NCBI GenBank assembly: GCA_015060925.1
Contig: SUXM01000018.1
Coordinates: 1 to 56,126, forward strand
DNA: 56,126 nucleotides
Origin: Parabacteroides distasonis
Lineage (GTDB): Bacteria > Bacteroidota > Bacteroidia > Bacteroidales > Tannerellaceae
Direction of reading: 5' to 3'
Below are positions 40,701 through 41,217 of this stretch, one piece after another. The position numbers and the translations under genes are program-made. Below the pieces are notes generated by a model. The model was not told where the DNA came from. It saw only the letters and a list, made by a program, of their open reading frames with translations, and did no database searches. How positions within the stretch are numbered: position 1 is the stretch's first letter; each line of letters begins with the position of its first letter.

Positions 40701-40970
40701 ACCAAATGCTAATAAAATGCCGTCCGGCTGTTCTTTTTTGATGACTTCTTCAACAAAATAGGGAGTGATAGGCAAGAAATAAACCTTATCGGCAACTCCT
40801 TCTGATGTCTGAATCGTTGCGATATTCGGATTTATCAATACTGTGCTAATTCCTTCTTCTCTAAGCGCCTTTAATGCTTGTGAACCAGAGTAGTCAAACT
40901 CTCCGGCTTGTCCAATTTTCAAGGCTCCTGAGCCCAGAACAATGACCTTTTTGATACCACTTTTCGACAT
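37752..40970 (-). CDS. carB: carbamoyl-phosphate synthase large subunit
   Basis: The 1072-residue enzyme makes carbamoyl phosphate from bicarbonate, ATP and glutamine-derived ammonia for pyrimidine and arginine synthesis. Two homologous ATP-grasp halves are evident (about 1-400 and 550-930, each starting [20 protein letters not shown] / [20 protein letters not shown]), followed by the allosteric MGS-like domain at the C-terminus ([25 protein letters not shown], residues about 935-1072). The small subunit carA is not adjacent. The 5' leader has an attenuator-like arrangement (see findings). Length is normal. Confidence 0.98.
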   Translation of the reverse strand: [1072 protein letters not shown]

Positions 40971-41020
40971 AGTAATTATTGATTTTTATTATATATATTT
41001 CTTACATTTTGTCCAGTTAT

Positions 41021-41054
41021 AAAAAAAATGCGTTAGTAAAAGTAACTAACGCAT
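41021..41054 (-). terminator. intrinsic terminator inside the carB leader (candidate attenuator)
   Basis: On the - strand ATGCGTTAGT pairs perfectly with ACTAACGCAT around a 7-base loop and is followed by at least seven T. It lies 51 bases before the carB start and directly after the stop of a 34-codon ORF. It may also end transcripts arriving from the efflux operon. Confidence 0.88.
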
Positions 41055-41055
41055 C

Positions 41056-41160
41056 CTATATAACCAAATTATTATCTTGAAAAATAAAGAAATGAGTATC
41101 TTTCTCTGATAGACAACCTGAGAAATACGTAAAATATTCTTTATGTATATTTCTACTCAT
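41056..41160 (-). CDS. candidate 34-residue leader peptide of carB
   Basis: ATG at 41160 opens a 34-codon frame whose TAG ends 1 base before the terminator stem. A purine-rich AAAAGAG lies about 8 bases before the ATG. The last third is U-rich (TTTCTTTATTTTTC at 41092-41079), the feature used for UTP-sensitive pausing in the E. coli pyrBI leader. A weak hairpin (41154-41121) could pause polymerase. No run of Arg codons argues for arginine control. The ORF by itself is short enough to arise by chance; its placement is the evidence. Confidence 0.4.
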   Translation of the reverse strand: MSRNIHKEYFTYFSGCLSEKDTHFFIFQDNNLVI

Positions 41161-41185
41161 AAGATATACTCTTTTCAAATCAGGA

Positions 41186-41217
41186 CAAAGGTAGTGCTTA
41201 TATTCTAATTGTACAAG
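41186..41217 (-). promoter_or_regulatory. promoter of the carB leader
   Basis: On the - strand TACCTTTG (TAnnTTTG) at 41193-41186, with CTTG 20 bases upstream (41217-41214). It lies just after the stop of the second RND gene. A start near 41179 gives a leader of about 209 bases. Confidence 0.6.

Follow-up and report, generated by a model that had tools for sequence, protein, structure and literature searches.

The stretch analysed here, referred to as the window, comprises 56,126 nucleotides of Parabacteroides distasonis (contig SUXM01000018.1) and stems from a draft genome that is 88% complete. Its minus strand carries a carB gene without an adjoining carA, and in front of carB lies a leader that contains a promoter, a purine-rich site, a short open reading frame (ORF), a U-rich tract and an intrinsic terminator. 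The initial annotation had read these parts in this order on the minus strand, and all of them were recovered where it had placed them (Table 1). Its count of 12 T in the 14 bases of the U-rich stretch is corrected to 11; 13 of the 14 bases are pyrimidines. A predicted pause hairpin just 5′ of the U-tract is an additional part that was absent from that description. Elsewhere in the window, on the plus strand, Rfam recognizes a cobalamin riboswitch (RF00174, 31687-31904, 96 bits).

Table 1. Parts of the carB leader and the gene that follows it, in window coordinates.
Feature	Position	Strand	Remarks
Promoter, Bacteroidota-type	41186..41216	-	TTG 41216-41214, 20 nt, then TACCTTTG 41193-41186
Purine-rich site GAAAAGAG	41176-41169	-	read directly
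Leader ORF MSRNIHKEYFTYFSGCLSEKDTHFFIFQDNNLVI	41056..41160	-	ATG 41160, TAG 41058-41056, 34 codons plus stop
Predicted pause hairpin	41101..41125	-	6 bp by eye, TTTCTC/GAGAAA
Pause hairpin core TCTC/GAGA	41123-41120/41106-41103	-	
Spacer from hairpin to U-tract	41093..41100	-	counted by hand: 8 nt to the 6-bp stem and 10 nt to the 4-bp core
U-rich tract TTTCTTTATTTTTC	41079..41092	-	11 T, 2 C, 1 A; proposed UTP-sensitive pause region
Intrinsic terminator (putative attenuator)	41021..41054	-	perfect 10-bp stem, 41054-41045/41037-41028
carB, carbamoyl-phosphate synthase large subunit, putative regulated gene	37752..40970	-	TIGR01369, 1424 bits

The TTG upstream of the TAnnTTTG box is presumably part of a Bacteroidota-type promoter. 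The box itself is described as the sigma-A box in the accessible text of PMC9723704. It is located 33 nt from the ATG in the window; for 66 of the 73 leaders collected by the mechanical rule described below, this distance ranges from 26 to 38 nt. The leader TAG lies 1 base 5′ of the terminator stem, with the stop codon beginning 4 nt before the 10-bp stem; the stem closes a 7-nt loop (TACTTTT), and the T-run ends at 41021. The core of the pause hairpin is weak in the window (-3.6 kcal/mol) and missing from the global fold. A local RNAfold prediction retains the core and extends it by further pairs, and this longer form would leave 3 nt between hairpin and U-tract. The script reports a gap of 14 nt between hairpin and tract in the window because it takes the tract start 4 nt later than the reading by hand, which gives 8-10 nt.

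A pairing of the start codon region had also been suggested as a gate for translation of the leader. Every base of ATGAGTA (41160-41154) can pair with TACTCAT (41098-41092), yet the pairing is not conserved, and pairing of this type is marginal over 25 divergent leaders (12 of 200 shuffles are as good).

The upstream regions of carB from 156 loci were screened by a mechanical rule, which left 137 distinct regions after 19 duplicates had been dropped. A terminator was found in 87 of them and was missing from the other 50, and a TAnnTTTG-like box was present in 82 of the 87. In 73 of these 82 loci an uninterrupted ORF begins near the promoter and reaches the terminator, compared with 9.8 expected from dinucleotide shuffles; this comparison is slightly biased toward the observed count, as any promoter box was allowed for the observed sequences and one for the shuffles. 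In L042, L147, L173 and L118 the rule chose inner ATGs (in another frame for L173 and L118), and the starts were set by hand. Nine loci possess box and terminator, and the rule assigns them no ORF (L052, L053, L054, L119, L120, L146, L149, L175 and L194). The carB upstreams of L119 and L120 contain a different terminator (ACCCCT...AGGGGT followed by a T-run), which perhaps belongs to another kind of control.

The leader ORF ends close to the terminator or within it. The first base of the stop codon is found at most 8 nt from the start of the stem in 57 of the 73 leaders, deeper inside or past the stem in 12, and 9-16 nt before the stem in four. Counted differently, the ORF stops at least 5 nt inside the stem, past it or beyond the end of the stretch in 30 of the 73 loci, or in 29 with the first ATG taken as the start in L173. 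In 72 of the 73 loci the stop lies no more than 11 nt before the stem, or further in. L064 (16 nt), together with L055 (17 nt), which falls outside the mechanical rule, is at the edge of ribosome reach. According to the accessible part of PMC4824070, 10-15 nt of free RNA between the ribosomal A site and the hairpin lets a terminator fold, and a steep dependence on this distance at pyrBI is recounted there from the work of Roland and colleagues. By this criterion, the leader ORF of the window and of 72 of the 73 loci comes near enough for a ribosome to block the terminator. The distance between stop codon and terminator in ordinary genes is 10-32 nt, a range from four terminators only and too small a sample to lean on.

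The encoded peptide appears to be of little importance. Across 22 leaders the ratio pN/pS is 0.90, compared with 0.99 and 0.98 in frames +1 and +2; these leaders were picked as ORFs of exactly 34 codons, and the absence of internal stops is therefore given by construction. Before the hairpin the ratio is 0.77, and a weak constraint on the peptide is possible there. A ratio of 0.90 together with an ORF that is open in 73 of 82 loci suggests that selection keeps the access of the ribosome to the terminator and hardly the peptide that is made. ORF, U-tract and terminator hold fixed relative positions while the peptide and most nucleotides change.

Taken alone, the U-tract of the window is weak (p = 0.066 for T and 0.032 for pyrimidine, 500 dinucleotide shuffles). 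Over 27 leaders below 75% identity, the T counts of the richest 14-nt windows add up to 261, compared with a shuffle mean of 230 and a maximum of 244 (0 of 500); one of these leaders, L009, entered the test with a wrong stop position. For 34 leaders below 70% identity, the search for the best hairpin took no account of the U-tract. At 9-18 nt past this hairpin, the U fraction is 0.594 versus 0.350 (sd 0.029) in shuffled leaders (0 of 200), and the summed hairpin energy is -247 versus -143 (0 of 200 sets). A separate test of hairpin energy in divergent relatives gave the same picture, with 0 of 300 shuffles reaching the observed value. The loci L150, L155 and L163 are not part of the divergent leader set.

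The gap between hairpin and U-tract has a median of 11 nt with quartiles of 9 and 12 (n = 69, including E. coli pyrL). Five of 74 leaders were left out of this set, their hairpin being missing or weak, and L020, L039, L042 and L172 were kept in, although their gaps of 15-36 nt reflect a later U-stretch. In most Parabacteroides and Bacteroides leaders the hairpin is found near nt 40-57, the tract starts at nt 65-73, and the terminator stem is located near nt 107. An intrinsic terminator needs a U-run directly after its stem. The U-run in these leaders comes instead about the length of a hybrid past the hairpin, as in hairpin-stabilized pauses. A 10-nt spacer is used for such pauses in the accessible text of PMC9291695.

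Compensatory changes, which the initial annotation had suggested looking for in relatives, are present: pause hairpin and terminator covary in 43 aligned leaders. This alignment (A1) consists of 46 leaders less L009, L011 and L116, whereas a second one (A2) holds 35 of 49 chosen leaders. Changes on both sides occur in four of the five hairpin pairs and in all three inner terminator pairs. Over the whole structure, 22 cells with changes on both sides were counted versus a shuffled mean of 8.1 (0 of 500); since the leaders are related, these counts refer to cells and not to independent events. As aligned, 92% of the cells are paired, and a shift of the 3′ partners by 1-3 columns brings this share down to 39% or less. 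In 23 of the 43 leaders, the outermost of the five hairpin pairs is not formed.

This carB is present in 36 of 38 Parabacteroides genomes, and the remaining two (G024 and G031) show its paralogue only. The leader precedes it in 29 of the 36 and is missing in seven (G006, G009, G015, G016, G022, G026 and G030). A covariance model (R1) searched against 37 genomes returned the same 29, with a single match in each genome, located immediately upstream of this carB. The named genomes closest to that of the window belong to Parabacteroides, and the carB upstream of P. massiliensis (L129) duplicates that of a genus member (L007). Equivalent leaders were found in Bacteroides fragilis (L159), B. congonensis (L150), B. 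oleiciplenus (L168) and B. stercorirosoris (L161), as well as in Caecibacteroides (L169), a Mediterranea metagenome-assembled genome (MAG; L192) and Paludibacteraceae MAGs (L183, L199 and L207). The initial annotation had named an absence of the short ORF or U-tract from relatives as a finding that would count against it; both are kept genus-wide and in other families.

A second covariance model (R2) was applied with stricter filters to 247 Bacteroidales genomes drawn evenly over families. It gave ten matches with E-values up to 0.009, all directly before carB (G146, G253, G299, G321, G323, G340, G000, G001, G045 and G145). Many of the leaders found by the two models had also served to build them; new to the model are G253, G299, G321, G323 and G340. 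Among the genomes of six named loci, four contain one match each just before carB (E = 1.2e-9 in B. fragilis) and two contain none, namely the divergent L199 and Phocaeicola massiliensis L149, in which the terminator is kept and the ORF and tract are lost. A class-wide search matched five of 296 genomes, all of them Bacteroidales. Absence elsewhere in the order- and class-wide searches is only suggestive, as their stricter filters missed divergent leaders that are visible by eye (e.g., in G111, which gave no match in the order-wide search).

No targets other than carB emerged from the genome-wide covariance searches, in which each genome gave at most one match. By eye, no such leader is seen upstream of pyrB in the ten readable of 19 genus loci (the script chose another ORF in the other nine), nor upstream of the carA-linked carB paralogue in 19 of 20 loci, with the start not located in the remaining one (L075). 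Three pyrB loci (L087, L089 and L091) show by eye a TAnnTTTG-like box about 100-120 nt before the gene and a long AT-rich 5′ region in which a terminator is not evident. At the level of sequence, what the comparison of relatives establishes is the order and spacing of the parts, the covariation of the hairpin, a frame kept open with hardly any conservation of the peptide, and the association with carB.

The E. coli pyrBI operon is regulated by translation-coupled attenuation that responds to UTP. When the leader pyrL was processed with the same script, the same layout was obtained, and the pyrBI-like reading put forward by the initial annotation gains from this as it does from the preservation of the layout in relatives. 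In pyrL the hairpin spans nt 33-50, with a bulged longer form to nt 53, the gap is 10 nt, TTTTTCTTCCC begins at nt 61, the terminator stem at nt 89, and an ORF of 44 codons runs through the terminator. Both systems combine a leader ORF, a hairpin, a gap of about 10 nt, a U-rich tract and a terminator overlapped by the ORF, in front of a known (pyrBI) or putative (carB) pyrimidine gene. They differ in the gene, which is carB and not pyrBI, in the phylum, and in the window ORF, which has 34 codons and stops at the stem. In the accessible text of PMC9291695, the pyrL pause is placed about 24 nt upstream of one studied before and shows no effect of NusA; compensatory changes in the hairpin gave no rescue, and the structure is ranked weak. 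These results call for caution about a hairpin role at E. coli pyrL itself. Descent from the enterobacterial pyrBI leader is not supported, as the element sits before carB and the ten readable pyrB upstreams of the genus do not have it by eye.

We consider it likely that the leader is a translation-coupled attenuator of the pyrBI type, which would set carB expression by the supply of pyrimidine nucleotides (UTP, perhaps also CTP). Transcription would start past the TAnnTTTG box, and a ribosome would begin to translate the leader ORF. The polymerase would then meet the hairpin and, about 11 nt on, the U-rich tract. With ample UTP it would pass this region fast, leaving the ribosome behind, so that the terminator folds and transcription stops before carB. 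With low UTP the polymerase would pause in the U-tract and the ribosome would close up. Because the ORF runs up to the terminator stem, into it or past it, the ribosome would cover the 5′ arm, and carB would be transcribed. The transcription start, the pausing, the catching up of the ribosome and the dependence on UTP are what we infer from this arrangement. Weighing against this reading are the weak hairpin of the window, the leaders of L011 and L160 with neither hairpin nor U-tract, the nine of 82 loci in which box and terminator come without an ORF, the loss of the leader from seven of 36 genus genomes, its absence by eye at the readable pyrB loci, and the placing of a carB that stands without carA in one of two possible pathways. 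For the Bacteroidales as a whole, we lean toward an order-wide and possibly independently evolved pyrBI device on carB, which would be characterized by the hairpin, the 11-nt gap, the U-tract, the open ORF and a drifting peptide.

Carbamoyl phosphate feeds both arginine and pyrimidine synthesis. In 34 of 37 genus genomes carA occurs, once in each, beside a second carB that is about 66% identical to the leader-bearing one. The leader-bearing enzyme may supply pyrimidine synthesis, arginine synthesis or both; from the UTP-sensing reading it is predicted that the orphan carB serves pyrimidines. Compared with solved structures, the window CarB scores higher against the mitochondrial ammonia-type CPS1 (1176 bits) than against E. 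coli CarB (761 bits), and judged by its sequence it would be an orphan CPS1-like large subunit. The genome of the window (G000) shows no carA or pyrB above the curated cut-off and no second carB; most relatives in the genus have them, and the gaps are probably due to incompleteness of the assembly.

Attenuators of the trp/his type are likewise built from a translated leader, a pause hairpin and a terminator. A ribosome-dependent attenuator could therefore be imagined that senses an amino acid (e.g., arginine), the translation capacity or the state of an elongation factor, with the U-tract serving only for synchronization. Such a device would share the leader ORF that reaches the terminator, and pause hairpins synchronize ribosome and polymerase in his/trp-type leaders (PMC9291695, accessible text), while clues for leader-peptide attenuation before amino-acid operons have been reported in Flavobacterium psychrophilum (PMC9723704, accessible text). 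We nevertheless regard it as unlikely. Asp, His and Tyr are somewhat elevated in 25 leaders (1.56, 1.41 and 1.33 times expectation), yet no residue exceeds a ratio of 1.6, and Arg is depleted to 0.53. The peptide is hardly conserved, and no antiterminator was found that competes for the 5′ arm of the terminator, as 70 of 200 shuffled leader sets pair with it equally well. The place of the pyrimidine tract, moreover, is fixed despite large changes in sequence. An unimportant peptide, the lack of regulatory codons and the lack of an antiterminator fit the pyrBI mechanism and not amino-acid attenuators; the trp/his type in the strict sense, which would call for a run of regulatory codons and an antiterminator, was rejected on the same values.

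The covariation of the hairpin would also be expected under control by RNA alone, as in a riboswitch, or by a hairpin-binding protein that switches the terminator; the ORF would then be a product of chance. This is very improbable given the 73 open ORFs in 82 loci versus 9.8 expected and a terminator arm without alternative pairing. No Rfam family matched the leader stretch at curated thresholds, and scans at permissive settings, which covered this stretch and its counterparts in six relatives, gave sub-threshold matches to unrelated families only. The PyrR-dependent pyr attenuators of Bacillus subtilis also control pyrimidine genes by means of a terminator. They differ from the present leader, which is presumably translated, and PyrR control was rejected: NF003549, which we take to be the PyrR model, matched none of 31 genus genomes at E 1e-10 (six of 14 control genomes were positive), and no PyrR match was obtained in Rfam. 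Least probable of all, in our estimate, is an ordinary gene for a small protein with its own terminator, or a terminator of the upstream efflux operon, either being unrelated to carB. The terminator does follow an RND operon in the window, and the initial annotation had allowed that it merely ends efflux transcripts. This is disfavored by the near-neutral drift of the peptide and by the 30 loci in which the ORF enters or passes the stem, and the element stays with carB: the genome-wide matches sit before this gene, and by eye it persists next to promoter-upstream DNA that looks unrelated.

If the pyrBI-type reading is true, translation-coupled UTP sensing of the E. coli kind operates in Bacteroidota, including the major gut genera Bacteroides and Parabacteroides. 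An order-wide device would further imply that carbamoyl-phosphate synthesis in dominant gut bacteria is set by a UTP-gated pause rather than by a protein or riboswitch. It would also require tight coupling between the polymerase and the first ribosome, in a phylum whose translation initiation does without Shine-Dalgarno sites, as stated for flavobacteria in the accessible text of PMC9723704. E. coli and B. subtilis differ in this respect (PMC7819879, accessible text), and a phylum without Shine-Dalgarno initiation is of special interest there.

The same enzyme is also under pyrimidine control in E. coli, where the carAB promoter P1 is subject to UTP-dependent reiterative transcription; in the accessible text of PMC6245113 this control acts at initiation, without leader peptide or terminator. 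Long 5′ untranslated regions with small ORFs reminiscent of leader peptides, such as that of BT_4401, are described for Bacteroides thetaiotaomicron (PMC7366714, accessible text), and neither carbamoyl nor pyrimidine is mentioned in the accessible main text. No UTP mechanism is described for these ORFs or for those of F. psychrophilum in the accessible parts of PMC7366714 and PMC9723704. The accessible text of PMC10994844 makes no mention of attenuat, leader, carbamoyl, pyrimidine, uracil or premature, and that of PMC2965389 none of Bacteroid, carbamoyl or pyrimidine. Among the titles and abstract starts covered, no UTP or pyrBI-like attenuator in Bacteroidota was found, and the novelty of the element is provisional.

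In the loci L109, L226 and L227 of genus g64, the tract CCGTTTTTTCCC or one alike follows a TGTCG/CGACA hairpin and is close in its letters to CCGTTTTTCTTCCC of E. coli, which is likely a case of convergence. In L011 and L160, an ORF of 12-13 codons still ends at the terminator, and hairpin and U-tract are absent; these natural variants are usable as controls.
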